Shown in pieces: positions 9,809 through 41,148 of a stretch of 43,013 nucleotides of DNA. Position numbers and translations under genes: made by a program. Each line of letters begins with the position of its first letter. Position 1 is the first letter of the stretch. This DNA is from Acidobacteriota bacterium (lineage in GTDB: Bacteria; Acidobacteriota; Vicinamibacteria; Vicinamibacterales; CAVVIG01). A model generated the notes under the pieces. It made no database searches and was not told the origin of the DNA. It was given only the letters and a program-made list of their open reading frames with translations. The stretch lies in contig JAGWRA010000171.1 of the NCBI GenBank assembly GCA_028876655.1, positions 1 through 43,013 on the forward strand, read 5' to 3'.

Positions 9809-9835
9809 CCGCGATTCAGGCTCAGGGTGTTGGAC

Positions 9836-11182
9836 ATGTGCACGTTCAGGCGGCTCCTCCCGGCGGTTGTTCTCCTCGCAGTCCTTCCGGCCTTCACGAC
9901 CGGCCTCCGGGCGGCAGCGCCGCCGGCGGCCGCCTCCGCGGCGCCGTCCGCACCGGGCTTCTACGCCGACGATCCGGTGCTGGCGGGCTATGTCCGCGCG
10001 GCGCTGGCGGCCAATCCCGCCGTGCAGGAAGCGCTCGCCCGGGCGCGATCGGCCGCGCAGCAGACCGACATCGTCTCGACGCTGCCCGATCCGATGGTGA
10101 CGTTCGGCCAGTCCCTGCGCAGCGTCGAGACGCGTGTCGGACCGCAGCTGAACAGCTACACCTTCAGCCAGGCCATCCCCTGGTTCGGCAAGCTCCAGCT
10201 GCGCGGCCAGGTGGCGGCGCAGGACGCGGCGGCCGCGCGCGCGCTGTCGGTCGCGCGGCAGCGCGACGTCATCGCGCAGGTGAAGCAGACCTACTACAAC
10301 CTCGGCTACGTGGATGCCGCGCTCGGCATCACGCGCGAGGAGCAGGCGCTGCTCGAGCACTACGAGCAGGTGGCGCGCGACCGCTACGCGACGGGACAGG
10401 GGCTGCAGCAGGGGGTCATCAAGCTGCAGGCCGAGATCACGCAGATCGTCAGCCGCCTGGATCTGCTGCTGCAGCAGCGCGTGTCGCTGGCCGCCGGCCT
10501 GAACACGCTGATGGCCCGCGATCCGTCGGCTCCCGTGCCGCCCGTGGCCGCGCTCGAGCTGCCGCCGCCTCCGTCCCTCGCGCTGGATCGGCTCTACGCG
10601 CTCGGCGACGCGCACCGCCCCGACCTGCAGGCGGTCTCGGCGCGCCTCGCCGGCGATCGGTCGTCCGTCGACCTCGCCAGGAAGGACTTCCGGCCGGACC
10701 TCGTGCTGAGCGCCGGCTTCATCAACGTCGGACACCGCGGCGACGCGGCGGGCCTCGCGCAGCCGCCCCCCGACAACGGCAAGAACGCGCTGACGGTGAT
10801 GGCCGGCTTCACGCTGCCGATCCACCGCGAGAAGTACCGCGCGGAGGTCCGGCGGGCCGCCGAGACGGAGGCGGCCGATGACTTCCAGCGGACCGACGTC
10901 CGCAACCAGATGACGTTCACGATCCGCGACCAGGTCGTGCGGCTGCAGACGCTGCGCGAGCAGGTGCGGCTCTTCACCGACGTGCTGCTGCCGCAGACCG
11001 AGCAGGAGCTGCGCGCGTCCGAGGCGGCCTACGAGAGCGGCCAGCTCGGCCTGCTCGATCTGCTCGACAGCGAGCGGAGCCGGCTGAGCATCCGGCTGAT
11101 CGACGCGCGAAACGTCGCCGACTACCTCGTGGCGCTCACCAGGCTCGAGCATGCGGTCGGCACCGCGTTTCCAGAGCAGTAA
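9836..11182 (+). CDS. TolC-family outer-membrane factor (CusC-type)
   Basis: The 448-residue protein is the outer-membrane channel of the efflux complex. It has a signal peptide (about 1-29), two long outer-membrane-efflux-protein (OEP) coiled-coil repeats (about 45-225 and 240-440) and the usual sequence landmarks: VRAALAANPAVQEALARARS, QAIPWFGKLQLRGQVA, and YESGQLGLLDLLDSERSRL in the second repeat. There is no lipobox, unlike E. coli CusC. ATG 9836 was chosen; GTG 9827 would add three residues. The CusB-like gene starts 11 bases after its stop. Together with the next two genes it should form a tripartite pump spanning both membranes. Confidence 0.9.
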   Translation: MCTFRRLLPAVVLLAVLPAFTTGLRAAAPPAAASAAPSAPGFYADDPVLAGYVRAALAANPAVQEALARARSAAQQTDIVSTLPDPMVTFGQSLRSVETRVGPQLNSYTFSQAIPWFGKLQLRGQVAAQDAAAARALSVARQRDVIAQVKQTYYNLGYVDAALGITREEQALLEHYEQVARDRYATGQGLQQGVIKLQAEITQIVSRLDLLLQQRVSLAAGLNTLMARDPSAPVPPVAALELPPPPSLALDRLYALGDAHRPDLQAVSARLAGDRSSVDLARKDFRPDLVLSAGFINVGHRGDAAGLAQPPPDNGKNALTVMAGFTLPIHREKYRAEVRRAAETEAADDFQRTDVRNQMTFTIRDQVVRLQTLREQVRLFTDVLLPQTEQELRASEAAYESGQLGLLDLLDSERSRLSIRLIDARNVADYLVALTRLEHAVGTAFPEQ

Positions 11183-11193
11183 AGAGGGTCCCC

Positions 11194-12600
11194 ATGAAAC
11201 CTTTCATCCTCGGCCTGTCGGCGTTCGCGCTCGGCGCGGCCATCACCATCTTCGTCTTCATCAACCCGCTCGGCTGGCAGTGGGCCGGCCTGGCGCGCAC
11301 GGCCCTGCCCGCCACGGCCTCGTCGCAGGCGGATGGCGCCTCTGCGACGGCACCGGCGGCCCGGCCGATCACCACCCGCAAGGTCCTCTACTGGCGGGCG
11401 CCGATGGACCCGAGCTACATCAGCGACAAGCCCGGCAAGTCGCCGATGGGCATGGACCTCGTTCCCGTCTACGAGGACGAGGCCGGCGGCACGCCGGGCG
11501 TCGTGAAGATCGACCCGGCGTTCGTCCAGAACATGGGGGTCCAGTCGGTGCCGGTGCAGCGGACCGACATCCCGTTCACGATCCGGACCGTCGGCACGCT
11601 GACCTACAACGACCGGCAGGTCGCCTGGGTGAACACGAAGTACGACGGCTGGATCGAGAAGGTCTACGTCAACTACGTCGGCCAGCCGGTGCACCGGGGC
11701 GAGAAGCTGTTCGACATCTACAGCCCGCAGCTGGTCACCACCGAGCAGGAGTACCTGCAGGCGATCCACTACGCCCGCCAGATGGAAGAGACGCCGTATC
11801 CCGACATGGCCGCCCGCGCAAGAGCGCTCGTCACCTCGGCGCGGCAGCGGCTGCGGTTCTGGGACATGAGCGACGCCCAGATCGACGCCCTGGCCACCTC
11901 CGGCCAGGTGCAGCGGACGGTGCCGGTCCTCGCGCCGGTCACCGGCATCGTCGTCCAGAAGGCGGACCAGGCGCTGCAGGGGATGTACGTGAAGGCCGGC
12001 ATGCCGCTCTACAAGACGGTCGACCTGTCGACGATCTGGGTGGACGCCGACATCTTCGAGAACCAGATCCCCTGGATGAGGCTCGGCCAGCGCGCCTCCG
12101 TCACGCTGCCGTCCGAGCCCGGCCGGACGTATACGGGCCGGGTCCGCTTCATCTACCCGTACCTGGATCCCAAGACCCGGACCATGCGGGTGTCGATTGA
12201 GATGCCGAACCCCGGTGGACGGCTGCGGGCGGACATGTACGCGAACGTCACGTTCGACGTGCCTGCGGCCCGGCACGTCCTCGCCGTGCCCGAGAACGCG
12301 GTCATCCAGAGCGGCACGCGCAACGTCGTCGTGATCGACTGCGGGCACGGGCTGTTCCAGGCCCGGACGGTCACGCTGGGACTGAACGGCCGCGGCCTGT
12401 GGCAGGTCCTCGACGGCGTACAGGAAGGCGAGCGGGTCGTCACGTCGGCGCAGTTCCTGATCGACTCGGAGAGCAACCTGAAGGCGGCCATCCAGCAGAT
12501 GACGCCGGCGCAGGCCTCGACGCCACCGGCCGCGGTGCCGCCAGCCCCGGCACCGGCCGCGGTTCCCGTGCCGGACGCCGGCGTGGCCTCGCATCAGTAG
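11194..12600 (+). CDS. cusB: CusB-type RND periplasmic adaptor
   Basis: The 468-residue membrane fusion protein links the inner-membrane pump to the outer-membrane channel. It starts with an uncleaved anchor or signal segment (about 4-24). Next is a heavy-metal-binding domain, YWRAPMDPSYISDKPGKSPM then GMDLVP (about 66-93), typical of CusB, with methionines in place of cysteines. A barrel-sandwich/lipoyl region follows (DGWIEKVYVNYVGQPVHRGE, later PVTGIVVQKADQ), with a helical hairpin between the halves, then beta-barrel domains. The C-terminus is a Pro/Ala tail. GAGGG lies before ATG 11194. The Met-rich site favours copper or silver over zinc/cobalt. Confidence 0.92.
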   Translation: MKPFILGLSAFALGAAITIFVFINPLGWQWAGLARTALPATASSQADGASATAPAARPITTRKVLYWRAPMDPSYISDKPGKSPMGMDLVPVYEDEAGGTPGVVKIDPAFVQNMGVQSVPVQRTDIPFTIRTVGTLTYNDRQVAWVNTKYDGWIEKVYVNYVGQPVHRGEKLFDIYSPQLVTTEQEYLQAIHYARQMEETPYPDMAARARALVTSARQRLRFWDMSDAQIDALATSGQVQRTVPVLAPVTGIVVQKADQALQGMYVKAGMPLYKTVDLSTIWVDADIFENQIPWMRLGQRASVTLPSEPGRTYTGRVRFIYPYLDPKTRTMRVSIEMPNPGGRLRADMYANVTFDVPAARHVLAVPENAVIQSGTRNVVVIDCGHGLFQARTVTLGLNGRGLWQVLDGVQEGERVVTSAQFLIDSESNLKAAIQQMTPAQASTPPAAVPPAPAPAAVPVPDAGVASHQ

Positions 12601-12618
12601 CGGAACGGACGGCCCATC

Positions 12619-15600
12619 ATGCTGGAACGGATCATCAACTGGTCGATCGCGAACAAGTTCCTCGTCCTGCTGGCGACCGCCTTCGTCGTGACCGGCGGGG
12701 TCTACGCCGCCCGGCAGACGCCGCTCGATGCCATCCCGGATCTGTCGGACGTGCAGGTGATCATCTACACGCCGTACGCCGGACAGTCGCCGCGGATCGT
12801 CGAGGATCAGGTCACCTACCCGATCACGACCCAGATGCTGGCCGTCCCGAACGCCAAGGTCGTCCGTGGCTATTCGTACTTCGGCTTCTCGCTCGTGTAC
12901 GTGATCTTCAACGACGGCACCGACCTGTACTGGGCGCGCAGCCGGGTGCTCGAGTACCTCAACACCGTCAGCGGCCGCCTGCCGCCCGGGGTCACCCCCA
13001 CGATGGGCCCGGACGCCACGGGGGCCGGCTGGGCGTTCATGTACGCCCTGACGTCGAAGCACCGCAACCTGGGCGAGCTGCGGTCACTCCAGGACTGGTA
13101 CCTCAAGTACCAGCTCTCGGCCGTCCCGGGCGTTGCGGAGGTCGCCAGCGTCGGCGGGTTCGTGAAGCAGTACCAGATCGCGGTCGATCCCAACAAGCTC
13201 CTCGCCTACAACATCCCGCTCTCGCGCATCCGGACGGCGGTGCAGCGGAGCAACAACGACGTCGGCGCCCGCGTGCTGGAGATGGGCGAGGCGGAGTACA
13301 TGATCCGCGGCGAAGGCTACATCGGCAGCCTGCAGGACATCCGGAACATTGCGCTGGGGGTCAACCGGGACGGCACGCCGATCCTGTTGAAAGACGTCGC
13401 CACGGTGCAGTTGGGCCCCGACATCCGGCGCGGACTGGCCGAACTGAACGGCGAGGGCGAGGTGGTGGGCGGCATCGTCATCGTCCGGTCGGGCGTCAAC
13501 GCCTACGACGTCATCCAGCGGGTGAAGACGAAGATGAAGCAGATCGAGCCCGGGTTGCCGAGCGACGTGCACATCGTTCCGGTCTACGATCGATCAGATC
13601 TCATCCAGCGGTCGGTGGACACGCTGCGCGAGAAGCTGCTCGAAGAGAGCCTCGTCGTCGCCCTCGTCTGCCTGATCTTCCTGCTGCACGTGCGCTCGGC
13701 GCTCGTCGCCATCTTCATGCTCCCGGTGGCGGTGCTCATGGCGTTCATCGTCATGTACTACCAGGGGATCACGGCGAACATCATGTCGCTCGGCGGCATC
13801 GCCATTGCCATCGGGGCCATGGTGGATGCGGCGATCGTGATGATCGAGAACGCCCACAAGCACCTGGAACGCGACGCCGGCCGGAAGTCGCACGCCGACA
13901 TCATCGCGGAGGCGGCGACCGAAGTCGGGCCGACCCTCTTCTACGCGCTGCTGGTCATCACCGTGTCGTTCGTCCCGGTGTTCACGCTGGAGGCGCAGGA
14001 GGGCCGCCTCTTCAAGCCGCTGGCGTTCATGAAGACCTACAGCATGGGGGCCGCGGCGCTGCTGTCGATCACCCTGGTGCCGGTCCTCATGGTGTACTGG
14101 ATCCGCGGCCGCATCCGCCCGGAATCGCGCAACCCGGTCAGCCGGGTGCTCATCGGCCTGTACGACCCGATCCTGCACTTCGCCCTGCGCTGGCGCTGGC
14201 TCGTGCTCGCCGGCACCCTCGTGGCGCTCGGCCTGACCTGGATTCCCTACTCGCGCATGGGCTCGGAGTTCATGCCGCCGCTCTGGGAGGGAGACCTGCT
14301 CTACATGCCCACGACGCTGCCGGGGATCTCGATTACCACGGCCCGGCAGCTCCTGCAGCAGACCGACCGGATCATCAAGACCTTCCCCGAGGTCGTGCGG
14401 GTCTTCGGCAAGGCCGGCCGCGCCGAGACCGCCACGGATCCGGCTCCGCTCGGCATGTTCGAGACCACCATCATGCTGAAGCCCGAATCGGAGTGGCCGG
14501 CGGGGATGACGCCGGACCGCCTGATCGACCAGATGAACGCCGCAATCCGGATTCCCGGCCTGACCAACGCCTGGACCATGCCGATCAAGAACCGGATCGA
14601 CATGCTGTCGACCGGCATCAAGACACCCGTCGGCCTGAAGATCTCCGGCCCCGATCTCGGTGTCCTGCAGAAGCTCGGCGAGGAGATCGAACCGATCCTC
14701 AACGCCGTGCCCGGCACGCGATCGGTCTATGCCGACCGGACGACCGGCGGCAACTACCTGAACATCAAGATCGACCGCGAGGCGATCGCCCGCTACGGGC
14801 TGACGATCGGCGACGTGGAGGACGTCATCCAGTCGGCGATCGGCGGCATGAACATCACCACGACCGTCGAGGGGCTGGAGCGCTATCCGGTGAACCTGCG
14901 CTACAGCCGCGATCTGCGCGACAACGTCCCGGCCCTGCGCCAGGTGCTCGTGCCGACGCCGACCGGCGCCCAGATTCCGCTGGGACAGCTCGCGGCGTTC
15001 GACATCGCCAAGGGGCCGCCGGTCATCAAGACCGAGGACAGCCGGCCGAACGCCTGGGTCTACGTGGACATCCAGAACATCGACGTCGGCACCTACGTGA
15101 AGCGGGCGCAGCAGGCCGTGGCGGCGAAGCTGACCCTGCCGCCCGGCTACAGCCTTGCCTGGAGCGGCCAGTACGAGTACATGCTGCGCGCCCAGCAGCG
15201 GCTCCTGTACGTCGTCCCGATGACGCTGCTGTTCATCTTCGTCATCATCTATCTGAGCACCCGCTCGATTCCGCGCACGCTGCTCGTGCTGCTGGCGGTG
15301 CCGTTCTCCCTCATCGGGGCGTTCTGGCTGATGTACCTGCTGCACTACAACCTCAGCGTGGCCGTCTGGGTCGGCGTCATTGCGCTCTCCGGCGTGGCCG
15401 CCGAGACCGGCGTCGTGATGCTGCTGTACCTCGACGGGGCGTACGACGCCGCCGCAGCGCAAGGGCACCTGCGGACGCGCCAGGACCTCACCGCCGCCGT
15501 CTACGAAGGCGCCGTCCAGCGGGTCCGGCCGAAGCTGATGACGGCCAGCGTCATCCTCGCCGGCCTGCTGCCGGTGATGTGGAGCCAGGGCACGGGGACC

Positions 15601-15723
15601 GACGTGATGAAGCGGATGGCCGCCCCGATGGTCGGCGGCATCGTCTCGGCGACCGTGGTGATCCTGATCGTCTTCCCGACGATCTACTTCATCTGGAAGG
15701 GGTGGAAGCTGCCGCGCGCGTGA
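12619..15723 (+). CDS. cusA: CusA/CzcA-type heavy-metal RND pump
   Basis: The 1034-residue inner-membrane proton/metal antiporter has the normal family length, twelve expected membrane segments and two large periplasmic loops. The N-terminus (TPLDAIPDLSDVQVIIYT, YPITTQMLAV) is CusA-like. The transport segment GGIAIAIGAMVDAAIVMIEN contains the essential Asp and Glu. RIDMLSTGIK and APLGMFETT keep methionines at positions corresponding to the CusA copper-binding Met pair, so Cu(I)/Ag(I) is the likely cargo. The gene follows cusB after 18 bases. A hairpin at 15743-15761 lies between it and the convergent cytochrome gene. Confidence 0.93.
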   Translation: MLERIINWSIANKFLVLLATAFVVTGGVYAARQTPLDAIPDLSDVQVIIYTPYAGQSPRIVEDQVTYPITTQMLAVPNAKVVRGYSYFGFSLVYVIFNDGTDLYWARSRVLEYLNTVSGRLPPGVTPTMGPDATGAGWAFMYALTSKHRNLGELRSLQDWYLKYQLSAVPGVAEVASVGGFVKQYQIAVDPNKLLAYNIPLSRIRTAVQRSNNDVGARVLEMGEAEYMIRGEGYIGSLQDIRNIALGVNRDGTPILLKDVATVQLGPDIRRGLAELNGEGEVVGGIVIVRSGVNAYDVIQRVKTKMKQIEPGLPSDVHIVPVYDRSDLIQRSVDTLREKLLEESLVVALVCLIFLLHVRSALVAIFMLPVAVLMAFIVMYYQGITANIMSLGGIAIAIGAMVDAAIVMIENAHKHLERDAGRKSHADIIAEAATEVGPTLFYALLVITVSFVPVFTLEAQEGRLFKPLAFMKTYSMGAAALLSITLVPVLMVYWIRGRIRPESRNPVSRVLIGLYDPILHFALRWRWLVLAGTLVALGLTWIPYSRMGSEFMPPLWEGDLLYMPTTLPGISITTARQLLQQTDRIIKTFPEVVRVFGKAGRAETATDPAPLGMFETTIMLKPESEWPAGMTPDRLIDQMNAAIRIPGLTNAWTMPIKNRIDMLSTGIKTPVGLKISGPDLGVLQKLGEEIEPILNAVPGTRSVYADRTTGGNYLNIKIDREAIARYGLTIGDVEDVIQSAIGGMNITTTVEGLERYPVNLRYSRDLRDNVPALRQVLVPTPTGAQIPLGQLAAFDIAKGPPVIKTEDSRPNAWVYVDIQNIDVGTYVKRAQQAVAAKLTLPPGYSLAWSGQYEYMLRAQQRLLYVVPMTLLFIFVIIYLSTRSIPRTLLVLLAVPFSLIGAFWLMYLLHYNLSVAVWVGVIALSGVAAETGVVMLLYLDGAYDAAAAQGHLRTRQDLTAAVYEGAVQRVRPKLMTASVILAGLLPVMWSQGTGTDVMKRMAAPMVGGIVSATVVILIVFPTIYFIWKGWKLPRA

Positions 15724-15742: not shown

Positions 15743-15761
15743 GGCCGGCTCCGTTCCGGCC
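15743..15761. terminator. Hairpin between convergent cusA and cytochrome genes
   Basis: GGCCGG and CCGGCC pair around a 7-base loop in the 37-base convergent gap. It could serve both directions. Confidence 0.4.
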
Positions 15762-16324
15762 TACTTCAGCGTCTGGAGGTAGGCCACGAGGTCGTTGAGG
15801 TCGGACGCCGACATCGACCAGCGCGGCATTTCCGGGTCGAGCGGATTGCCACCCGGGTCGATGCCGTGGGTGATGGCCTGCTCGACGGTCGCCACGGTGT
15901 AGGGCGGGTGGTCCGTGTACGGCCCGGTCAGCACGGGCCAGGTGATATCGGGTGCCACGAAGCTCTGTGCGAACAGGAACACCTGCCCGCCGTGGCCGTC
16001 GGTCCCGTGACAGGTCGCACAGGCGATGCGCATCATCATCGGTGCGGGCATCCAGCTCGGGCCGCCCTGGTAGGTGATCGGGCTGCCCGACGCTGAGGTG
16101 CCGGTCAGGAAGATCTGCTGGCCGTTCGAACGGTACGTTCCGCTGGAGATGACCGGATCGGCCGCGAATCCCATCCGCTGACTCGACGAGGCGCCGCAGC
16201 CCGCCGCGCCGGTCACGCCGGCGGCCAGCAGGGCCCACACGAGCCATCCGGCGCCGCGGCCGCGCGCGTGCGGGCGCGCCGGGAGGGCGCCACCGTCAGT
16301 GACGGGTAAGAAGGACCTGGCCAT
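15761..16324 (-). CDS. Monoheme cytochrome c lipoprotein
   Basis: The 187-residue protein has a basic N-terminus, a hydrophobic segment and a lipobox-like GAAGC (C43), so it is likely lipid-anchored facing the periplasm. IACATCHGTDGHGG gives a single c-type heme motif (C102-C105-H106), and DPEMPRWSMSASDLNDLVAYL near the C-terminus supplies the axial Met and the final helix of a class I cytochrome c. The middle SNGQQIFLTGT and GGPSWMPAPMMMRI are characteristic of small membrane-bound cytochromes found beside redox or metal genes. Its ATG overlaps the upstream lipoprotein gene by 29 bases without a clear ribosome binding site, so translation is probably coupled. Start is therefore less certain. 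Confidence 0.88.
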   Translation of the reverse strand: MARSFLPVTDGGALPARPHARGRGAGWLVWALLAAGVTGAAGCGASSSQRMGFAADPVISSGTYRSNGQQIFLTGTSASGSPITYQGGPSWMPAPMMMRIACATCHGTDGHGGQVFLFAQSFVAPDITWPVLTGPYTDHPPYTVATVEQAITHGIDPGGNPLDPEMPRWSMSASDLNDLVAYLQTLK

Positions 16325-16811
16325 TGTTGAACGCGCCGTTGCAGCTGTTCGTGCCCGTATAGATGCCCTGAATCTGACTCATGACCCCGTCCCAGTCGAA
16401 CGACCCGGTGGCGGTCGCGGTGCACTGGGTCATCATCATCATCGAGCCGATGGGGATGTTCATCGTGAAGGTGCCCGTGGAGCCGTCGATGTTCCCCGAC
16501 ACGCTCATGCGGCCGCCGAAGTACCCCTGGAACTGCATGACGCCCGAGAACGTGCCGCCCGTCTGCGTCAGCTGCCAGGTCATCCCCTGCATCATGGTGG
16601 TCGTCAGGCCGGCGCCCATCATCGAGCCGCTCGAATCGCCGGCGCTGCCCGTCCAGATGCCCGTGAGACCGGCCGACGCGGCGCTGGTCGGCGCCAGCGG
16701 ATTGGCGCTCGACATGGACGACGACGAGGAGCGGCCGGATCCTGTACACGCGAGCAGTCCCACGACACTCGCGATGCCGGCGACGACGGTCAGACTTCGC
16801 ACCGGGCGCAT
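16296..16811 (-). CDS. Lipoprotein of unknown function, Met/Ser/Thr-rich
   Basis: The 171-residue protein has a short signal peptide ending in a lipobox (VVGLLACTG), then a Ser-rich linker and a beta-rich domain starting with LTGIWTGSAGD, with WQLTQTGGTFSGVMQF, MSVSGNIDG and GSFDWDGVMSQIQGIYTG. The alternating pattern suggests a lipocalin-like or small beta barrel fold, but I do not recognise the family. Methionine runs (GSMMGAG, GSMMMMTQC) could bind copper; this is only a guess. ATG 16811 follows an excellent AGAGGAGG ribosome binding site. It is the first gene of a two-gene operon with the cytochrome lipoprotein, under a candidate sigma-54 promoter. Confidence 0.75.
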   Translation of the reverse strand: MRPVRSLTVVAGIASVVGLLACTGSGRSSSSSMSSANPLAPTSAASAGLTGIWTGSAGDSSGSMMGAGLTTTMMQGMTWQLTQTGGTFSGVMQFQGYFGGRMSVSGNIDGSTGTFTMNIPIGSMMMMTQCTATATGSFDWDGVMSQIQGIYTGTNSCNGAFNNGQVLLTRH

Positions 16812-16874
16812 ACCCACCTCCTCTGGCTCCCTGCGCTCGTGCGGTTCGCGTCGAGCCGGGCTGCGGCGGTATTA

Positions 16875-17459: not shown

Positions 17460-18818
17460 ATGAATTCGGCCAAACGCTTGTACAAGGTGTTTGCCGTCGC
17501 TGCCGCGCTCGCCGTGATCGCCATCCTTCCGGGGCGCAGCGCGTTCGCGATTACCAGCTTCGCCAGGCAGACGGGGCTGCCGTGCAGCGCATGCCATACG
17601 ATGCCGCCCGAGCTGACGCCGTTCGGCCGGGCGTTCAAGCTGAACGGCTACACGCTGACCGGGCTGCCGCAGTTGACGGCGAAGCCGGCGCAGCAGCGGT
17701 CCGGCCTGACCGTCGCGCGGGAACTGCCGGTCTCGATCGAGATTCCGTTCTCGTTCACGGCGACCAGCACGGCGGTCCCCGGGACGCAGAACGGCAGCTT
17801 CTCGATCCCCCAGGAGATCGGGCTGTTCTTCTCCGGCGCGGTCAGCAGTCACGCCGGCACGTTCACCCAGATCACGTATGATCCGCGTGCGGACCATATC
17901 AGCCTCGACATGGAAGACACCCGCTACGCCAACCGGACGAGCCTGGGCGGCAAGGACCTCGTGTACGGCTTCGACTTCACCACGGCGCCGACCGGCGAGG
18001 ACCTGTGGAACGACACGCCGGTGTGGGGCTTCCCGTGGATCGGCAGCGACGCCGCGCCGGGCCCGATGGCCGCGACGCTGCTCGACGGCACCCTCACGGA
18101 CGACGTGGGCGGAGTCGGTGCGTATGCGATGTGGAACGATCACCTCTACGGCGACGTCACGGTGTACCGGACGGCGCACCTCGGCGCCGATCAACCCTTC
18201 GACGGGGCCGGGTTCCCCTACAACATCCGCGGGACGGCTCCCTACTGGCGCGCGGCCTGGCAGCAGACGATGGGGAACAACTACCTCGAGGTCGGCACCT
18301 ACGGCATGCACGTGGTCTCGTCGCCCAACGCGGTGAGCGGGCCCGAGGACACGTACACGGACCTGGCGGCCGACAGCCAGTACGAACGGATCCTGCCGAG
18401 CCTGGCCAACGACACGATCTCGGTGCACACGACCTACATCCACGAGCGATCGGACCTGCTGGCGACCTACGCGGCCGGCAGCGCGTCCTTCACGGCCCAC
18501 GACCTGAGCACGTACCGGCTCGACGGCACGTACCACTGGGGCAACAAGTACGGCGCGACGCTGGGCTACTTCAAGACGTGGGGAACCGTGGACCCGCTGC
18601 TCTACGCCCAGGATCCGGTCGACGGCAGCGCGAATGGCGACCCCGGGAACGCCGGCTACACCGCCTCGTTCTCCTGGTGGCCGGTCCAGAACATCGAGAT
18701 GGCCCTGCAGTACACGGGCTACACGACGTTCAACGGCGGCAGCACGAACTACGACGGGGCCGGGCGGAACGCGTCGGACAACAACGCGATCTACGCCAGG
18801 GTCTGGTTCATCTTCTAG
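17460..18818 (+). CDS. Monoheme cytochrome fused to outer-membrane beta-barrel (Cyc2-like)
   Basis: The 452-residue protein has a signal peptide (1-30) and then a tiny cytochrome domain: ITSFARQTGLPCSACHTM with heme motif C42-C45-H46, followed by PELTPFGRAFKLNGYTL. The remaining ~380 residues alternate polar and hydrophobic residues, as in a porin with about 16 strands, and the last residue is Phe (RVWFIF), the outer-membrane insertion signal. This is the architecture of Cyc2 porin-cytochromes, which pass electrons from outside (ferrous iron in the known cases) into the periplasm. Length fits that family. Whether this member oxidises iron is unknown. GGAGGT precedes ATG 17460. It leads an operon with a cupredoxin, cytochrome c and terminal reductase genes. 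Confidence 0.75.
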   Translation: MNSAKRLYKVFAVAAALAVIAILPGRSAFAITSFARQTGLPCSACHTMPPELTPFGRAFKLNGYTLTGLPQLTAKPAQQRSGLTVARELPVSIEIPFSFTATSTAVPGTQNGSFSIPQEIGLFFSGAVSSHAGTFTQITYDPRADHISLDMEDTRYANRTSLGGKDLVYGFDFTTAPTGEDLWNDTPVWGFPWIGSDAAPGPMAATLLDGTLTDDVGGVGAYAMWNDHLYGDVTVYRTAHLGADQPFDGAGFPYNIRGTAPYWRAAWQQTMGNNYLEVGTYGMHVVSSPNAVSGPEDTYTDLAADSQYERILPSLANDTISVHTTYIHERSDLLATYAAGSASFTAHDLSTYRLDGTYHWGNKYGATLGYFKTWGTVDPLLYAQDPVDGSANGDPGNAGYTASFSWWPVQNIEMALQYTGYTTFNGGSTNYDGAGRNASDNNAIYARVWFIF

Positions 18819-18869
18819 GGCAGCTGCCGACAGGGCATGCTTGAACCTCTTCGCGGGGGCACAACGACC

Positions 18870-19601
18870 ATGACATTGAAACCACGCATCTGGATCGTCG
18901 CGCTGGCTGCAGCGCTCTTCGCCATCTGCGGCGTGCAGGTCACGCACGTCCGGGCCGCCGGCGACGGCACCCTGACCGGCAAGGTCCTCTTCCATGGGAC
19001 GCGGCCGCAGCCGCAACTCATCAACATGGCCCGCGACCCGGAGTGCGTCCGGGAGAACGAGGGCAAGAAGGTTTACGTGCAGGACGGCGAGGTGAACGAG
19101 AACGGCACCCTGCCGTACGTCTTCGTCTACGTGAAGTCGGGCGCGCCGGCGCACGAAACCGCGCCGAAGACGCCGGTGGTGCTCGACCAGCAGGGCTGCG
19201 TCTTCGTGCCGCACGTCGTCGGCGTGATGGTTGGCCAGCCGCTGAAGGTCCTCAACAGCGACTTCACGACGCACAACGTGCACGTCCGTCCGAAGATCAA
19301 CGCGGAATGGAACGAGTCGCAGCCGCCCGGCGGGGCCGCCATCTACAAGACGTTCGCCAAGCCGGAGATTATGATCCCGGTGCAGTGCAACATGCATCCC
19401 TGGATGAAGGCGTACATCGGTGTGGTCAGTAACCCGTTCTACGACACGACGGGGACCGACGGGACCTACACGATCAAGGGGCTGCCCCCGGGCACCTACA
19501 CGATCGAGGCCTGGACGGCGACCTACGGCACGCAGGAACAGACGGTGACCGTGCGGGCCGGCGCGACGACCACGTCCGATTTCACATTCACCCACCGGTA
19601 G
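18870..19601 (+). CDS. Exported cupredoxin with C-terminal carboxypeptidase-regulatory-like domain
   Basis: The 243-residue protein has a signal peptide (about 1-30). The plastocyanin-like domain (about 33-185) shows a full type-1 copper site: H135 or H138 in FTTHNVHV, then VQCNMHPWM with C173, H176 and M179. Additional cysteines C59 and C110 may form a disulfide. The C-terminal part (about 190-243) has the GTYTIKGLPPGTYTIEAW pattern of a carboxypeptidase-regulatory-like beta sandwich. It probably carries electrons in the periplasm between the cytochrome-porin and downstream acceptors. ATG 18870 lies 51 bases after the porin stop. The ribosome binding site is weak (GGGGGC). Confidence 0.85.
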   Translation: MTLKPRIWIVALAAALFAICGVQVTHVRAAGDGTLTGKVLFHGTRPQPQLINMARDPECVRENEGKKVYVQDGEVNENGTLPYVFVYVKSGAPAHETAPKTPVVLDQQGCVFVPHVVGVMVGQPLKVLNSDFTTHNVHVRPKINAEWNESQPPGGAAIYKTFAKPEIMIPVQCNMHPWMKAYIGVVSNPFYDTTGTDGTYTIKGLPPGTYTIEAWTATYGTQEQTVTVRAGATTTSDFTFTHR

Positions 19602-19619
19602 CACCGGCGGACGGCTGGA

Positions 19620-19646
19620 GGGCGCCGGCCACTCGGGCCGGCGCCC
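19620..19646 (+). terminator. Strong hairpin after the cupredoxin gene
   Basis: A perfect 11-bp GC stem (GGGCGCCGGCC with GGCCGGCGCCC) closes a 5-base loop, 18 bases after the stop codon. It has no long T-run; it may terminate part of the transcripts or protect the 3' end. Confidence 0.55.
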
Positions 19647-19739
19647 GTTCGAGTCCGGGCACAGCCCGGCGGCGCGCACCGCGCGCCCGCGAACAGAGTG
19701 GAGGGAGCCGGATCGCGAGCGCAACGTCGTGAGCCGGGG

Positions 19740-19758
19740 ATCGGGGCAGCGCCCCGAT
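19740..19758 (+). promoter_or_regulatory. Hairpin immediately before the cytochrome c ribosome binding site
   Basis: ATCGGGGC and GCCCCGAT form a perfect 8-bp stem with an AGC loop. The strong AAGGAGGAG ribosome binding site follows within 5 bases. Confidence 0.5.
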
Positions 19759-19774
19759 TGAAGAAGGAGGAGTA

Positions 19775-20158
19775 ATGCGGAAGCGTGCAGGACGGTCGAT
19801 GGCGTGGGTGTTCGTCGTGGCCCTGGGGCTGACCCTCCCGGCGACGGCGGTGGTCTGGGCCGGCAGCGACAAGGCCCCGTTGTCGAAGGAGGCGCAGGCG
19901 GGCAAGAAGCTCTATCAGGCCAACTGCGCCGTCTGTCATTATGCGGACCAGACGGCGAACAAGGTCGGCCCGGGCCTGAAGGGGCTGCTGAAGAACAAGC
20001 TGATGCCCGACGGCAAGACGCCGGCCACGGTGGCGAACGTCCTCGATCGGATCGAGAAGGGGGCGCCCAACGCCGACCCGATGCCGATGCCGGCCTTCAA
20101 GGAGAAGTTCTCGAAGACCGAGATGGACGAGTTGATCGCGTACCTCAAGACCCTCTGA
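19775..20158 (+). CDS. Small soluble cytochrome c
   Basis: The 127-residue protein has a signal peptide (about 1-29) and a class I cytochrome c domain. QANCAVCHYAD gives the heme motif C51-C54-H55, VGPGLKGLL follows in the usual place, PMPAF supplies the axial methionine, and EMDELIAYLKTL is the C-terminal helix. It is expected in the periplasm, where it would deliver electrons to the CuA site of the next gene product. A strong AAGGAGGAG ribosome binding site precedes ATG 19775. A hairpin overlaps its stop codon before the next gene. Confidence 0.93.
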   Translation: MRKRAGRSMAWVFVVALGLTLPATAVVWAGSDKAPLSKEAQAGKKLYQANCAVCHYADQTANKVGPGLKGLLKNKLMPDGKTPATVANVLDRIEKGAPNADPMPMPAFKEKFSKTEMDELIAYLKTL

Positions 20159-20176
20159 CCCCGGGCCCCCCGGGGT
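20158..20176 (+). promoter_or_regulatory. Hairpin between cytochrome c and subunit II genes
   Basis: ACCCCGGG pairs perfectly with CCCGGGGT around a CCC loop. It begins at the last base of the cytochrome stop codon and ends about 10 bases before the next start. Confidence 0.5.
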
Positions 20177-20186
20177 GCAGGAGCCG

Positions 20187-20765
20187 ATGCTCCCACAAGC
20201 GGCCGCGCTCTCACTGTTCATCGTCGTGGCGGTGCTGGTCGCCGCCGTCTTCGCCGGGGTTGCGCTCAGCACGCGCCAGCCGCATGACCCCGGTGCGGCC
20301 GCGGCCACCCGCCTGCGGCGATGGTTCGCCGGCGTCCTCGGCACCGGCCTCCTCGCCGCCCTGGTCGTCACGCTGCTCCACCTCCCGTATCCGCGCGGCC
20401 GGGCGCATCCGGACCTGGTCATCTACGGGGTCGGCATGCAGTACGCGTGGGGCCTGTCGACCAGCCCGATCACCACCCAGGACGAGTGGCAGAACTCGAC
20501 CTTCGCGAATCCGATCGACGTGCCGGCGGGTTCCCTCGTCGAGTTCCGCGTGACGAGCTTCGACGTGAACCACGGCTTCGGCGTCTTCGATCCGTCACAC
20601 CACCTGCTCGGCCAGGTGCAGGCCATGCCCGGCTACGAGAACCGGCTGCAGCTGCGGCTCACGACGCCCGGAACCTACTGGGTGTTCTGCCTGGAGCTGT
20701 GCGGCATGGGTCATCACCTCATGCGCGGCGAATTCGAAGTCGTGCCGCCCGGAGCGCATCCATGA
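20187..20765 (+). CDS. coxB: Heme-copper oxidase subunit II with CuA site
   Basis: The 192-residue protein has two N-terminal membrane segments (about 5-25 and 45-65) and a periplasmic cupredoxin domain. The binuclear CuA ligands are intact: H in DVNHGFGVFD, then CLELCGMGHHLM with two Cys, the Glu carbonyl position, His and Met. It receives electrons from cytochrome c or a cupredoxin and passes them to subunit I. It is short, like subunit II of ba3-type and NorSY (sNOR) enzymes. ATG 20187 follows CAGGAG closely; GTG 20175 is an alternative start. Its stop overlaps the ATG of subunit I. Confidence 0.9.
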   Translation: MLPQAAALSLFIVVAVLVAAVFAGVALSTRQPHDPGAAAATRLRRWFAGVLGTGLLAALVVTLLHLPYPRGRAHPDLVIYGVGMQYAWGLSTSPITTQDEWQNSTFANPIDVPAGSLVEFRVTSFDVNHGFGVFDPSHHLLGQVQAMPGYENRLQLRLTTPGTYWVFCLELCGMGHHLMRGEFEVVPPGAHP

Positions 20766-22252
20766 CGGACGCTGGCGCTCCCGCGTCGCGCAGTGCCCGG
20801 CCGCTCCGCACGCTGACCGCCCTGTGGATGGGCATGGTCTGCCTGCTGTTCCTTGCCTTCTCGCTCGACGGCTGGTTCCTGCGGACGTATCAGTCGAAGC
20901 TCCTGTTCGCGACCATGCGCCCGGAGCTGTTCTACGCCGTGCTGACCCTGCACGGGATCGGCATGGTCGGCCTCTGGATGGCCGCCAGCCTGGCGGCGGG
21001 CAACTACCTGCTCGCCCGCTACGTCCGCCCGCCGCGATGGGCCTCGTGGCTGGCGCTGGCGGGGACGGTCGCCGGCTTCGTGGTGCTGGTGGAAGCGACG
21101 ACCGAGGGGCTGTTCGGCGCGGGCTGGTACTTCCTGTACCCGCTGCCGATGTTCTCGCAGGGCATCTGGCCCACATGGGCGACCGGCGGCTTCTTCGCCT
21201 CGCTGGCAACGCTGTGCGCGGTCTGGCTGATCTGGGCCCTGGCTACGCTCTGGGCGATCCTGCGGCAGTATCCGCTGCCCCGCGCCCTCGCCTGGCCGCA
21301 ACTGGCCGGCCGGTCCGCACCGGCGGTGCCGCCGCTCGTCCTGATCAGCACGGTGGCCCTGCTGCTCGGCGTGGCCGGCTTCCTGGACGCCTTTGCGGTC
21401 TTCACGTTCTACCTGCTCCAGTGGCGCGTGCACGGCTTCGTCGCCGACGCGCTGCTGATGAAGAACCTCACCTTCTTCTTCACGCAGATGACGGCCTACG
21501 CCACGATGTACCTGGGCGTAGGGGTCGTCTACGAGCTGCTGCCCGCCTTCGCCGCCCGATCCTGGAAGACGACGCGGGTGGTGGCGCTCGCCTGGAACGC
21601 CGCGCTGGCGCTGGCGCTCGTCTCCTACCTGAATCACCTCTACATGGACGTCGTGCAGCCGCACGCGCTGCAGGTGGCGGGACAGGTCGTCTCCTACCTG
21701 AGCGCGGTGCCGGCTGCCACCGTCTCGATCTTCGACGGCCTGCTGCTCGTCTACGGCGCCCGCATGCGCTGGACGATCGCCTCGTCGTTCCTCTTCCTGG
21801 GCCTGATGGGCTGGGCGGTCGGTGGGGTCGGCGCCGTCATCGACTCCACGATCGCCGCCAACGCCGTGCTGCACAACACGCTCTGGGTGCCGGCGCACTT
21901 CCACACCTACTACCTGATGGGCGTCGTGCTGATGCTGCTCGGCTTCGCCAGTCACCTGGGCCTGGAGCTGAGCGGCCGGGCCGAGAGCCGCCTCGTCCGG
22001 CGGCTCGTCCTGCCCTTCTTCCTCGTCGGCGGCTACGGCTTCGTGCTGACGCTCTTCTGGGCCGGCGCGCACTCGATCCCCCGCCGCTACGCCGTCTATC
22101 CCGACGAGCTGGCGCGGGGGGCCTTCTACGCGCGGTTCGACGTCGTCCTCATCGGCGTGCTCCTGCTGGGGATCGTGCTGTTCCTCGGCGAGACCGGCCG
22201 GCACTACGTGACGGCGGCCGTCCGCGGGCTGCGGCACCGCGGCCGGTCCTAG
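20762..22252 (+). CDS. Divergent heme-copper oxidase/NO-reductase subunit I
   Basis: The 496-residue protein has about 12-13 membrane segments. Heme ligands are kept: H64 in LTLHGIG, and H379/H381 in NTLWVPAHFHTYYLMG, which resembles ba3-type enzymes. The CuB side is abnormal. Where oxidases have GHPEVY, it has FFTQMTAY, with Q242 in the histidine position and Y246 retained; where they have HH it has N291-H292. Only one of three CuB histidines therefore seems present. E258 in VVYELLP recalls the Glu of the NorB helix VI. It may be an oxidase-derived enzyme with another substrate, for example an sNOR-like NO reductase, or have lost copper chemistry. Start ATG 20762 overlaps the subunit II stop. 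No subunit III or assembly genes follow. Confidence 0.8.
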   Translation: MTDAGAPASRSARPLRTLTALWMGMVCLLFLAFSLDGWFLRTYQSKLLFATMRPELFYAVLTLHGIGMVGLWMAASLAAGNYLLARYVRPPRWASWLALAGTVAGFVVLVEATTEGLFGAGWYFLYPLPMFSQGIWPTWATGGFFASLATLCAVWLIWALATLWAILRQYPLPRALAWPQLAGRSAPAVPPLVLISTVALLLGVAGFLDAFAVFTFYLLQWRVHGFVADALLMKNLTFFFTQMTAYATMYLGVGVVYELLPAFAARSWKTTRVVALAWNAALALALVSYLNHLYMDVVQPHALQVAGQVVSYLSAVPAATVSIFDGLLLVYGARMRWTIASSFLFLGLMGWAVGGVGAVIDSTIAANAVLHNTLWVPAHFHTYYLMGVVLMLLGFASHLGLELSGRAESRLVRRLVLPFFLVGGYGFVLTLFWAGAHSIPRRYAVYPDELARGAFYARFDVVLIGVLLLGIVLFLGETGRHYVTAAVRGLRHRGRS

Positions 22253-38317: not shown

Positions 38318-39748
38318 ATGACCAAGAGACCTCTGCTGCCTGGTGGCCCTGTGGCACCCCGCCTGATGGCGCTCGCGGCGTTCGTCGCGGCCATCGGCAC
38401 GGCGGCACCTGCCCGAGCCATTCCGGCATTCGCCCGCAAGTACCAGACGAGCTGCCAGACCTGCCACATCATGTTTCCCAAACTGAACGCCTTCGGCGAA
38501 GCGTTCCGCCTGCGTGGGTACCGGATGCCCGGGGAGACGGCGGCGGTGGTCAAGGTGCCGCAGATTCCGCTGGGGGCGCCGGCCTACAAGCAGCTCTGGC
38601 CGAAGGCGATCTGGCCGGGTGAATTGCCCAGCGCCGTGCCGCTGGCGGTCGTCGTCAAGATGGGCGACGTGAACAGCTCGACGCTGAACGGCGACGGAAC
38701 GGTCACGACCATCCACAACGACTTCCAGTTCCCGCAGGAGCTGAACGTCTTCGGCGCCGGGACGCTCGGCGATCACGTCTCCTTCTACGGCGAGATCACC
38801 TTCGGGAACAATCCCGACGGCTCGGTGGACGTCGCCCTCGAGCACGCCGACATGGGCTTCGACTCGCCGTTCGGGCCCGAGGACGCGCTGCACATCCGGA
38901 TGGGCGAGTTCAACCCGAACCTGATCGACGGCTTCTCGGAGACCCAGATCTCCACCGACTCGGCGATCGACTCGGTGTTCAACTACAACCCGGTCGGCGT
39001 GAACGGCGGCACCGGGCTCGGCGCCGACGGCGTCACGCCCCAGCCCATCTCGCTGCCGACCCTGGTGCAGGGGATCGAAGCCTACGGCATCCTGCACCAC
39101 CACGCGCTCTGGGTGGCCGGCCTCGCCAACGGCGCGTCCGCGACCGCCGGTGACACGACGGGCCGCTTCGACGGCAACAACGCGAAGGACGTCTGGGCGC
39201 GGTTCGACTACAAGATCGGCGGCATGGGCTTCGACGGCTACACGACCAAGGGGCCGTCGGTCGAGCCGTGGCAGGACAACTCGCTGCGGCTGGGCGCCTT
39301 CGTCTACCGAGGAGACGGCAACGGTATCGACTTCCCGGGCACGGACCCGCTGGGCAACGCGATCGCCATCCAGGACAGCCACTACCTGCGGACCGGGCTG
39401 TTCGTGAGCGGGTTCATCGGCAACCTGAACGTGTTCGGGGTCTACATGCACGGCACCGACACGCTGAACCTGTTCCAGCAGGGAGCCGGCGCGTCCTACT
39501 CGGCGATCACGCCTGGCTACGACGCCTGGTTCACCCAGGCCGACTACCTGATCTATCCGTGGCTCCAGGGGACGTTCCGGTACGAGACCGTCCGGCCCGG
39601 CGACCGCTCGGTGCCCGACGTGCGCACCGCCGTGGCGAGCGGAAGCGCGCTCATCCGGGCCAACGTGAAGCTCATCGTGGAATACATGCGGGATCTGCAG
39701 GAAGGCAGGAATCATTCTCTGGATGCGGTGGTTCGGTTCGGCTTCTAG
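38318..39748 (+). CDS. Second monoheme cytochrome-porin fusion (Cyc2-like)
   Basis: The 476-residue protein repeats the architecture of the gene at 17460. A signal peptide (1-34) is followed by IPAFARKYQTSCQTCHIMFP (heme motif C46-C49-H50) and KLNAFGEAFRLRGYRMPG, then a beta-barrel of about 400 residues with long loops and a terminal Phe (VVRFGF). Its barrel sequence differs strongly from the first copy, so the two are old paralogues and may face different electron donors or partners. A GGGGGAGG ribosome binding site precedes ATG 38318. Two cupredoxin genes follow in the same direction. Cyc2-like function (electron entry through the outer membrane) is inferred. Confidence 0.75.
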   Translation: MTKRPLLPGGPVAPRLMALAAFVAAIGTAAPARAIPAFARKYQTSCQTCHIMFPKLNAFGEAFRLRGYRMPGETAAVVKVPQIPLGAPAYKQLWPKAIWPGELPSAVPLAVVVKMGDVNSSTLNGDGTVTTIHNDFQFPQELNVFGAGTLGDHVSFYGEITFGNNPDGSVDVALEHADMGFDSPFGPEDALHIRMGEFNPNLIDGFSETQISTDSAIDSVFNYNPVGVNGGTGLGADGVTPQPISLPTLVQGIEAYGILHHHALWVAGLANGASATAGDTTGRFDGNNAKDVWARFDYKIGGMGFDGYTTKGPSVEPWQDNSLRLGAFVYRGDGNGIDFPGTDPLGNAIAIQDSHYLRTGLFVSGFIGNLNVFGVYMHGTDTLNLFQQGAGASYSAITPGYDAWFTQADYLIYPWLQGTFRYETVRPGDRSVPDVRTAVASGSALIRANVKLIVEYMRDLQEGRNHSLDAVVRFGF

Positions 39749-39804: not shown

Positions 39805-40425
39805 ATGACTCGTCGGATTCTGTCCTTGATCAGCAGTGCCACGCTCGTCGCGGCGGTCATCGCCGTCCCGGCCATCCGGCTCTCCGCCGCAGCGGACGGC
39901 TCGATTACCGGCACGATCACGGCGACCGGCCAGACCTCGAACGGCAACACGGTCGTCTACATCGAGAAGGCCGCCGGCACCTTCGCGCCGAAGGGGGCGC
40001 AGATCGACCAGCACAGCCTGACGTTCGAACCGCACGTCGTGCCGCTGCTGGTCGGCAGCACGCTCACGTTCCTGAACACCGACACCGTGCCGCACAACGT
40101 CTTCTCGCCCAGCTACGAGAAGTACAACCTCGGCACGTGGAAGCCGGGTGAGAAGAAGACCTACACGTTCAAGACGTGCAAGAAGTTCCCGTGCGTCTAC
40201 GCGCAGCTGTGCCTGCTGCACCAGGAAATGAGTGCCTACGCCGTGGTCCTGCAGAACCCGTACTTCGCCGTGAGCGACGCCTCGGGGCAGTACACGATCA
40301 AGGACGTGCCGCCAGGGCAGTACACGCTGGCGGTCTGGCACGAAGGCAAGCTGAAGGCGGCGCCCAAGACCATCACCGTGACCGCCGGCAAGCCGCTCAG
40401 CGAGGACTTCACGCTGCAGCCCTGA
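39805..40425 (+). CDS. Exported cupredoxin, tandem copy 1
   Basis: The 206-residue protein has a signal peptide (about 1-30) and a plastocyanin-like domain with a full type-1 copper site: H97 in TVPHNVFSP and C136, H139, M142 in QLCLLHQEM. C125 and C130 are also conserved in the next gene and may form a disulfide. The C-terminal third (GQYTIKDVPPGQYTLAVWHE) is a carboxypeptidase-regulatory-like beta sandwich. It should be a periplasmic electron carrier, probably for the cytochrome-porin encoded upstream. GTGGAGG lies before ATG 39805. Confidence 0.87.
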   Translation: MTRRILSLISSATLVAAVIAVPAIRLSAAADGSITGTITATGQTSNGNTVVYIEKAAGTFAPKGAQIDQHSLTFEPHVVPLLVGSTLTFLNTDTVPHNVFSPSYEKYNLGTWKPGEKKTYTFKTCKKFPCVYAQLCLLHQEMSAYAVVLQNPYFAVSDASGQYTIKDVPPGQYTLAVWHEGKLKAAPKTITVTAGKPLSEDFTLQP

Positions 40426-40527: not shown

Positions 40528-41148
40528 ATGATCCGTCGTTCCGTTCTGTCCCGCATCGGGGGGCTCGTCTTCGCCCTGGCCATCGCCGCCGCGGGCGTCC
40601 ACCTGGAGGCGCAGGGGACCGGCACCATCAAGGGCAACGTGGACGTCAGCGGCGTGCCGCACGATGGCGACGCCGTCATCTACATCGTGAAGGCCCCGGG
40701 GACGTTCGCGCCGCAGCCCGAGGAGATGGACCAGCACGACATGGTGTTCCGGCCGCACGTCCTGCCGGTGCTCGTCGGCAGCAAGGTCACCTTCCTGAAC
40801 CACGACCCGGTGCCGCACAACGTCTTCTCGCCCAGCTACGAGAAATACGACCTGGGCACCTGGGAACCCGGGCACATCCGGACCTACACGTTCAAGACGT
40901 GCCAGCAGGTCCCCTGCGCCTACACGCAGTTGTGCCGGCTGCACGAGAACATGGAAGCGTTCATCGTGGTCCTGCAGAACCCGTACTTCTCGGTCAGCGA
41001 ACCCTCCGGGGACTATCAGATCACGAACGTACCGCCGGGCAACTACACGCTGGCGATCTGGTACCCCGGCAAGCAGAAGGCCGCGTCGCGTTCGATTACC
41101 GTGAAGGCCGGGACCACGCTCACCGAGAACTTCGCGCTGAAACCCTGA
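40528..41148 (+). CDS. Exported cupredoxin, tandem copy 2
   Basis: This 206-residue paralogue aligns without gaps to the previous product: same length, same copper ligands (H97, C136, H139, M142) and the same C125 and C130. VPHNVFSPSYEKY and the VVLQNPYF stretch are identical or nearly so, while the N-terminus and surface differ. A signal peptide (about 1-29) sends it to the periplasm. I chose ATG 40528 because GTGGAGG and the signal peptide fit it; an upstream ATG at 40468 would place the hairpin inside the coding region. The recent duplication suggests higher dose or split roles. Confidence 0.87.
   Translation: MIRRSVLSRIGGLVFALAIAAAGVHLEAQGTGTIKGNVDVSGVPHDGDAVIYIVKAPGTFAPQPEEMDQHDMVFRPHVLPVLVGSKVTFLNHDPVPHNVFSPSYEKYDLGTWEPGHIRTYTFKTCQQVPCAYTQLCRLHENMEAFIVVLQNPYFSVSEPSGDYQITNVPPGNYTLAIWYPGKQKAASRSITVKAGTTLTENFALKP

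Follow-up and report, generated by a model that had tools for sequence, protein, structure and literature searches.

A Cyc2-like cytochrome-porin gene adjoining an sNOR-type haem-copper enzyme with lost second-metal ligands in an acidobacterial genome

Introduction

What defines the haem-copper superfamily catalytically is its binuclear haem-metal site. In Acidithiobacillus, the rus operon (cyc2-cyc1-cup-coxBACD-rus) brings together genes from an outer-membrane cytochrome-porin to a haem subunit (PMC2754497, PMC10654088). Three elements define the cytochrome-porin Cyc2: the motif AXPXFAR[Q/K][T/Y], a CXXCH after it and, further downstream, PXL (PMC8406198). Enzymes of the sNOR type are listed with an Asn at the place numbered N246 below and with a cupredoxin-type second subunit in Table A4 of PMC8756737, where 'Silicibacter' is named for sNOR. 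The Nitrosomonas europaea cluster is norSY-senC (PMC4940428), and it is debated whether the Nitrosomonas sNOR serves to reduce NO or O2 (PMC4940428, PMC6967387). NO dismutases, which are derived from qNOR and have no donor site, carry a second-metal His to Asn change plus a nearby Glu to Gln change (PMC3413370).

Here, we analysed a window of 43,013 nucleotides (contig JAGWRA010000171.1) from an Acidobacteriota bacterium of the Vicinamibacterales. An earlier note on this DNA had proposed a five-gene chain in it, leading from an outer-membrane cytochrome-porin through a copper protein, a cytochrome c and a CuA subunit to a CuB-poor terminal haem-copper enzyme.

Gene content of the locus

All five open frames proposed at 17460-22252 are present on the + strand at the positions given, and strong third-position GC supports their coding character. 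The proposed identities were also borne out, by Pfam/NCBIfam matches for the cytochrome c, CuA subunit II and haem subunit I and by the ligand set for the cupredoxin. The features are:

17460..18818, + strand: Cyc2-like fused monohaem cytochrome-porin (AITSFARQT, CSACH, PEL and C-terminal WFIF; full-length homologues)
18870..19601, + strand: periplasmic type-1 copper protein with a CarboxypepD_reg domain (amicyanin-like CNMHPWM; Pfam)
19620..19646, + strand: perfect 11-bp GC-rich hairpin, possible transcript boundary between modules (fold analysis)
19775..20158, + strand: class-I monohaem cytochrome c, soluble or anchored (Pfam Cytochrom_C, 3e-12)
20175..20765, + strand: CuA subunit, NorS/CoxB-like, subunit II (COX2, 1.2e-7; CoxB, 2e-23)
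20762..22252, + strand: sNOR-type haem-copper subunit I, NorY/CoxA-like, with a dismantled CuB/FeB site (COX1, 1.3e-38)
21482..21499, + strand: helix VI catalytic motif T241 Q242 .. Y246 (ACG CAG .. TAC), G-H-x3-N in relatives
21632..21637, + strand: helix VII ligand pair N291 H292 (AAT CAC), H-H in relatives

The genes are separated by 51, 173 and 16 nt, and the last two overlap by 4 nt. Just upstream of the cluster lies a heavy-metal efflux set (9827-15723, + strand) with outer-membrane factor, CusB-like and CusA-like genes. A probable lipoprotein monohaem cytochrome c (ACATCHG; 15761-16324, - strand) is divergent from the porin cluster and adjoined by an unknown lipoprotein-like gene (16296-16817, - strand).

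We also searched the genome (4.19 Mb, 281 contigs) for other genes. It contains only one other haem-copper oxidase, a caa3-type enzyme with a cytochrome c domain attached to its CuA subunit, and O2 respiration is served by this separate oxidase. Two SCO genes are located elsewhere in the genome. No copper nitrite reductase (NirK) over the cut-off and no RuBisCO were found in it.

Origin of the haem subunit

Across 84,980 species genomes, a scan yielded 49 relatives of the haem subunit, at 38-56% identity. No nearer relative was detected in the family, the class or a phylum sample of 396 genomes. Phylogenetic analysis placed the protein within the sNOR-type family, as sister to an acidobacterial sequence (SH-aLRT 97) and on a long branch (0.82). 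In the relatives, as in the window, the CuA gene lies directly upstream. Together, the tree and this gene order support descent of the haem subunit from an sNOR-type B-family haem-copper enzyme. The AlphaFold model (pLDDT 85, pTM 0.89; loop ~363-380 of low confidence) matched cytochrome oxidase subunit I in Foldseek with TM values of 0.77-0.79.

An SCO/SenC gene often follows the haem subunit in the relatives (e.g., loci L003, L015 and L047) and is absent after it in the window. Compared with sNOR (norSY-senC; Nitrosomonas, Ruegeria and others), the window pair shares the upstream CuA subunit, 36-56% identity, the haem ligands and a nested position in the tree, whereas it lacks the downstream senC and is joined instead to a porin and a cupredoxin. 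In one Bacteroidota genome, a quinol-type NO reductase gene was found directly upstream of the sNOR-type pair (L026, 6802-9162).

The partner subunit is well preserved. The CuA ligand residues H133, C172, E174, C176, H180 and M183 are all kept, as are 27 of 28 invariant columns. In 18/50 relatives, a CxxCH stretch either shares the reading frame of the CuA gene or lies a short way upstream; apparent cytochrome c-CuA fusions, mostly in Pseudomonadota, were seen at loci L013, L015, L017-L025, L033, L049 and L051.

Loss of the second-metal site

Relatives of the haem subunit carry GH242xxxN246 and H291H292, the places at which the window protein has T241, Q242, Y246 and N291. The GH..N and HH pattern is present in 46 of 48 rows of the alignment, the two exceptions being the window protein and its own copy. 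Ruegeria pomeroyi, the Silicibacter of PMC8756737, has GHVFIN and HH. With Q242 and N291 in place of His, only one of the three CuB/FeB histidines, H292, is kept, so the description of the enzyme as CuB-poor was correct. For the same reason, calling it a terminal enzyme is doubtful. The haem ligands are all kept by alignment with solved oxidases: H64 and H381 (low-spin) and H379 (high-spin).

The changes fall disproportionately on the catalytic site. Among 79 columns invariant in 43 relatives, the window protein keeps 71 and departs at eight (G241T, H242Q, N246Y, A288S, H291N, F297V, F431L and Y432F), whereas no relative departs at more than five. Changes affect four of five catalytic columns against four of the 74 others (Fisher p 2.2e-4). 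The protein fits neither described pattern. It has neither the three CuB/FeB histidines (GH, HH) of sNOR nor the Asn that in sNOR stands for the cross-linked Tyr, since Y246 occupies the position of N246 in all intact relatives. Nor does it have the His-ligated CuB with a helix VI His-Tyr pair of O2 reductases, since Tyr246 is present and His242 and His291 are replaced.

A sequencing error is unlikely because four separate codons are changed with the frame intact. Extra histidines of the window protein (224, 301, 398 and 437) were rejected as compensating ligands, since none of them occupies a ligand position of helix VI or VII. Neither the family or class nor the 396 phylum genomes yielded another genome with the Q/Y/N site. 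The open-access literature yielded no relevant paper on haem-copper enzymes lacking CuB ligands. Loss of the site is strongly established at the sequence level, in a single genome, and no close relative shares the change; it may reflect new function or decay.

The cytochrome-porin and the cupredoxin

The porin is a protein of 452 amino acids with a signal peptide, a single CSACH and the C-terminus ARVWFIF; its N-terminus is AITSFARQTGLPCSACHTMPPEL. It matches the Cyc2 motif at 8/9 positions (AITSFARQT, with Thr for Pro), and CSACH and PEL are present. The N-terminus is therefore Cyc2-like, apart from one motif proline; the PXFAR screen of PMC8406198, strictly applied, would have excluded this protein. 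Cyc2 fused cytochrome-porins resemble it in signal peptide, FARQT motif, single CXXCH, PXL, length (~450 aa) and barrel-like C-terminus. They differ in having AXPXFAR where the window porin has AXTXFAR and a putative barrel; among full-length proteins, the nearest relatives found for the window porin are uncharacterised products of plasmid genes.

A Cyc2 protein would have a 16-stranded outer-membrane barrel, with its cytochrome plugging the periplasmic side. The window porin has a barrel-like composition and a C-terminal Phe, with a strand count just above that of shuffled sequences in a simple, weak strand-periodicity test. No Pfam/NCBIfam family matched the porin, sequence and profile searches against the PDB returned no match, and a search of viral contigs found no relatives. 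The AlphaFold model, short of homologues, had a pLDDT of 26.

Full-length homologues, 30-37% identical, were found on Pseudomonadota plasmids (Caballeronia, Acidithiobacillus, Paraburkholderia and Methylocystis, among others); all six that were inspected have c-type cytochrome genes nearby. Among 193 genomes of the class, this porin type is limited to the source genome (E 1e-15). Given the plasmid homologues and the sole carrier in the class, horizontal acquisition of the porin is plausible.

The cupredoxin (243 aa) contains H..CNMHPWM, with an amicyanin-like Cys-x2-His-x2-Met spacing as read from its sequence. Its family is present in 166 of 396 Acidobacteriota genomes, and the close copies checked (L114, L115 and L117) adjoin CtaA, an oxidase assembly gene.

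One system or two modules

The earlier note had described the five genes as an operon-like run. They do lie on one strand with mostly short gaps. However, the 173-nt gap between the cupredoxin and cytochrome c genes contains a perfect 11-bp GC stem (19620-19646) and folds better than 200/200 shuffles (z -2.9), and a single transcript is therefore not established. The hairpin has no T-run and is not a consensus terminator.

The chain as a conserved unit did not survive comparison with related genomes, in which the same order was found nowhere else. A porin or Cyc2 motif occurs within 10 kb in 0/49 haem-subunit relatives from the 84,980 species genomes, nor does a porin adjoin the haem subunit in any match from the class or phylum searches; we thus rejected the five-gene order as a conserved system. 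In the neighbourhoods examined, porin relatives adjoin cytochromes or cupredoxins, never an sNOR-type enzyme. The five genes were not found as neighbours in any other genome searched, which by the earlier note's own terms tells against the chain as a system; the genes themselves stand. We read the locus as two modules side by side, porin with cupredoxin, and cytochrome c with CuA subunit and haem subunit. A functional link between them would be speculative, as it rests on adjacency in one genome alone.

The suggestion that such a five-part cluster was previously unknown is contradicted by the rus operon, which already unites such parts (PMC2754497, PMC10654088), so that the combination of genes is conceptually not novel. 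Both have an outer-membrane cytochrome-porin, a copper protein, a cytochrome c, a CuA subunit and a haem subunit in near-identical order. The window differs from the rus operon in lacking coxC, coxD and rusticyanin, in the CarboxypepD domain of its cupredoxin and in its host, which is not Acidithiobacillus. Where the rus operon joins cyc2/cyc1/cup/rus/coxBACD in one transcript, a hairpin splits the modules here. The haem subunit here is of the sNOR type, not the aa3 type, and lacks two CuB ligands. The distinctive part is this sNOR-type enzyme without its second-metal ligands, not the gene set.

Possible functions of the altered enzyme

The best explanation, to which we give a probability of roughly 0.45, is that the locus consists of two adjoining modules and that its sNOR-derived enzyme has kept electron entry and lost O2/NO reduction at the binuclear site. 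One module would comprise the Cyc2-like outer-membrane cytochrome-porin and the periplasmic cupredoxin, and the other the cytochrome c, the CuA subunit and the sNOR-derived haem subunit. A route from periplasmic carriers through CuA and haem b to haem b3 probably persists. Ordinary four-electron reduction of O2, or reduction of two NO, would no longer be possible without a His-ligated second metal. The most likely role of the haem enzyme would be that of a redox relay, or of a mononuclear-haem enzyme able to bind, or slowly reduce, a small ligand such as NO or O2. Electrons from the porin side might also reach it, in the manner of the rus operon, although this is speculative. A further-reaching version, in which the second metal was shed under selection and a CuA/haem b/haem b3 relay or mononuclear-haem enzyme now serves the outer-membrane gate, is distinctly unlikely; if true, such a relay would be a functional class of the superfamily not described in the literature searched.

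A chance association of two unrelated units, the porin/cupredoxin pair on one side and the CuA enzyme on the other, is somewhat unlikely. The hairpin and the 173-nt gap separate the modules, cupredoxins of this family abound in the phylum and each module occurs alone elsewhere. Yet all genes are on one strand, the other gaps are short and every product is a redox protein, and the association of the closest checked cupredoxin relatives with CtaA also speaks against coincidence. Decay of the haem subunit gene, its function lost and its catalytic site eroding first while the rest has yet to change, is unlikely. The sequence stands alone on its long branch (0.82), which also fits relaxation; SenC has been lost from the cluster, and H242Q, N246Y and H291N are each one base change from a relative's codon. 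Against decay, the 496-codon frame is intact with strong GC3, the CuA partner is nearly perfectly conserved, the haem ligands are all kept, and the changes cluster at the catalytic site instead of being spread.

A rus-type chain of iron oxidation, from Fe(II) through the porin, the cupredoxin and the cytochrome c to CuA and O2, appears improbable. The parts list matches the rus operon, the porin has a Cyc2-like motif and cytochrome c genes neighbour its homologues; however, the haem subunit belongs to the sNOR type instead of the aa3 type and is missing CuB ligands that O2 reduction requires, the linkage is seen in one genome only, and the absence of RuBisCO also counts against it, although mixotrophy is still compatible. 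Quite improbable, in our view, is an NO-active enzyme with an altered metal, perhaps Fe, held by H292 and amide/tyrosine oxygens in convergence with NO dismutase. The NO dismutase of Methylomirabilis is the nearest known changed-ligand case, a haem-copper/NOR relative that also has a second-metal His to Asn change, with Glu to Gln nearby (PMC3413370); sNOR relatives adjoin nitrate reductase or qNOR genes (L015, L026), and a formate/nitrite transporter lies near others (L076, L077). However, NO dismutase has lost one ligand and the window protein two, and it is qNOR-derived with neither CuA nor a donor site (PMC3413370) and no known porin link, whereas the window protein is of the B-family/sNOR type with an intact CuA subunit; the qNOR-like character, single FeB His to Asn change and missing donor site of NO dismutases are thus not what we found. 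As the genome has no NirK over the cut-off, no clear source of NO was found either.

A member that retains CuA and both haems while dropping two second-metal ligands would show a route by which such enzymes come to another use. It would also be a warning for annotation, because with its profile score, that of cytochrome oxidase subunit I, such a protein would pass for an oxidase or NO reductase. The porin side is of lesser weight because rus-type clusters are already known.

Other cytochrome-porin loci

A second Cyc2-like cytochrome-porin is encoded in the window (38318-39748, + strand), with the complete Cyc2 motif AIPAFARKY. It represents the commoner Vicinamibacterales porin type (FARKYQTSCQTCH) and is followed by two tandem cupredoxin-CarboxypepD genes (39805-40425 and 40528-41148, + strand). 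Cyc2-like porins are also found beside a cupredoxin in related genomes (loci L085, L088, L089 and L090), and near a Rieske/cytochrome b cluster at L087 and L088. There, genes for an Fe-S flavoprotein oxidoreductase, a Rieske protein and a cytochrome b lie near the porin (L087, 107-8924; L088, 1747-7472), and the L087 neighbourhood additionally codes for an eight-CxxCH cytochrome. It is possible that at these two loci an outer-membrane gate is linked to a bc-type complex.
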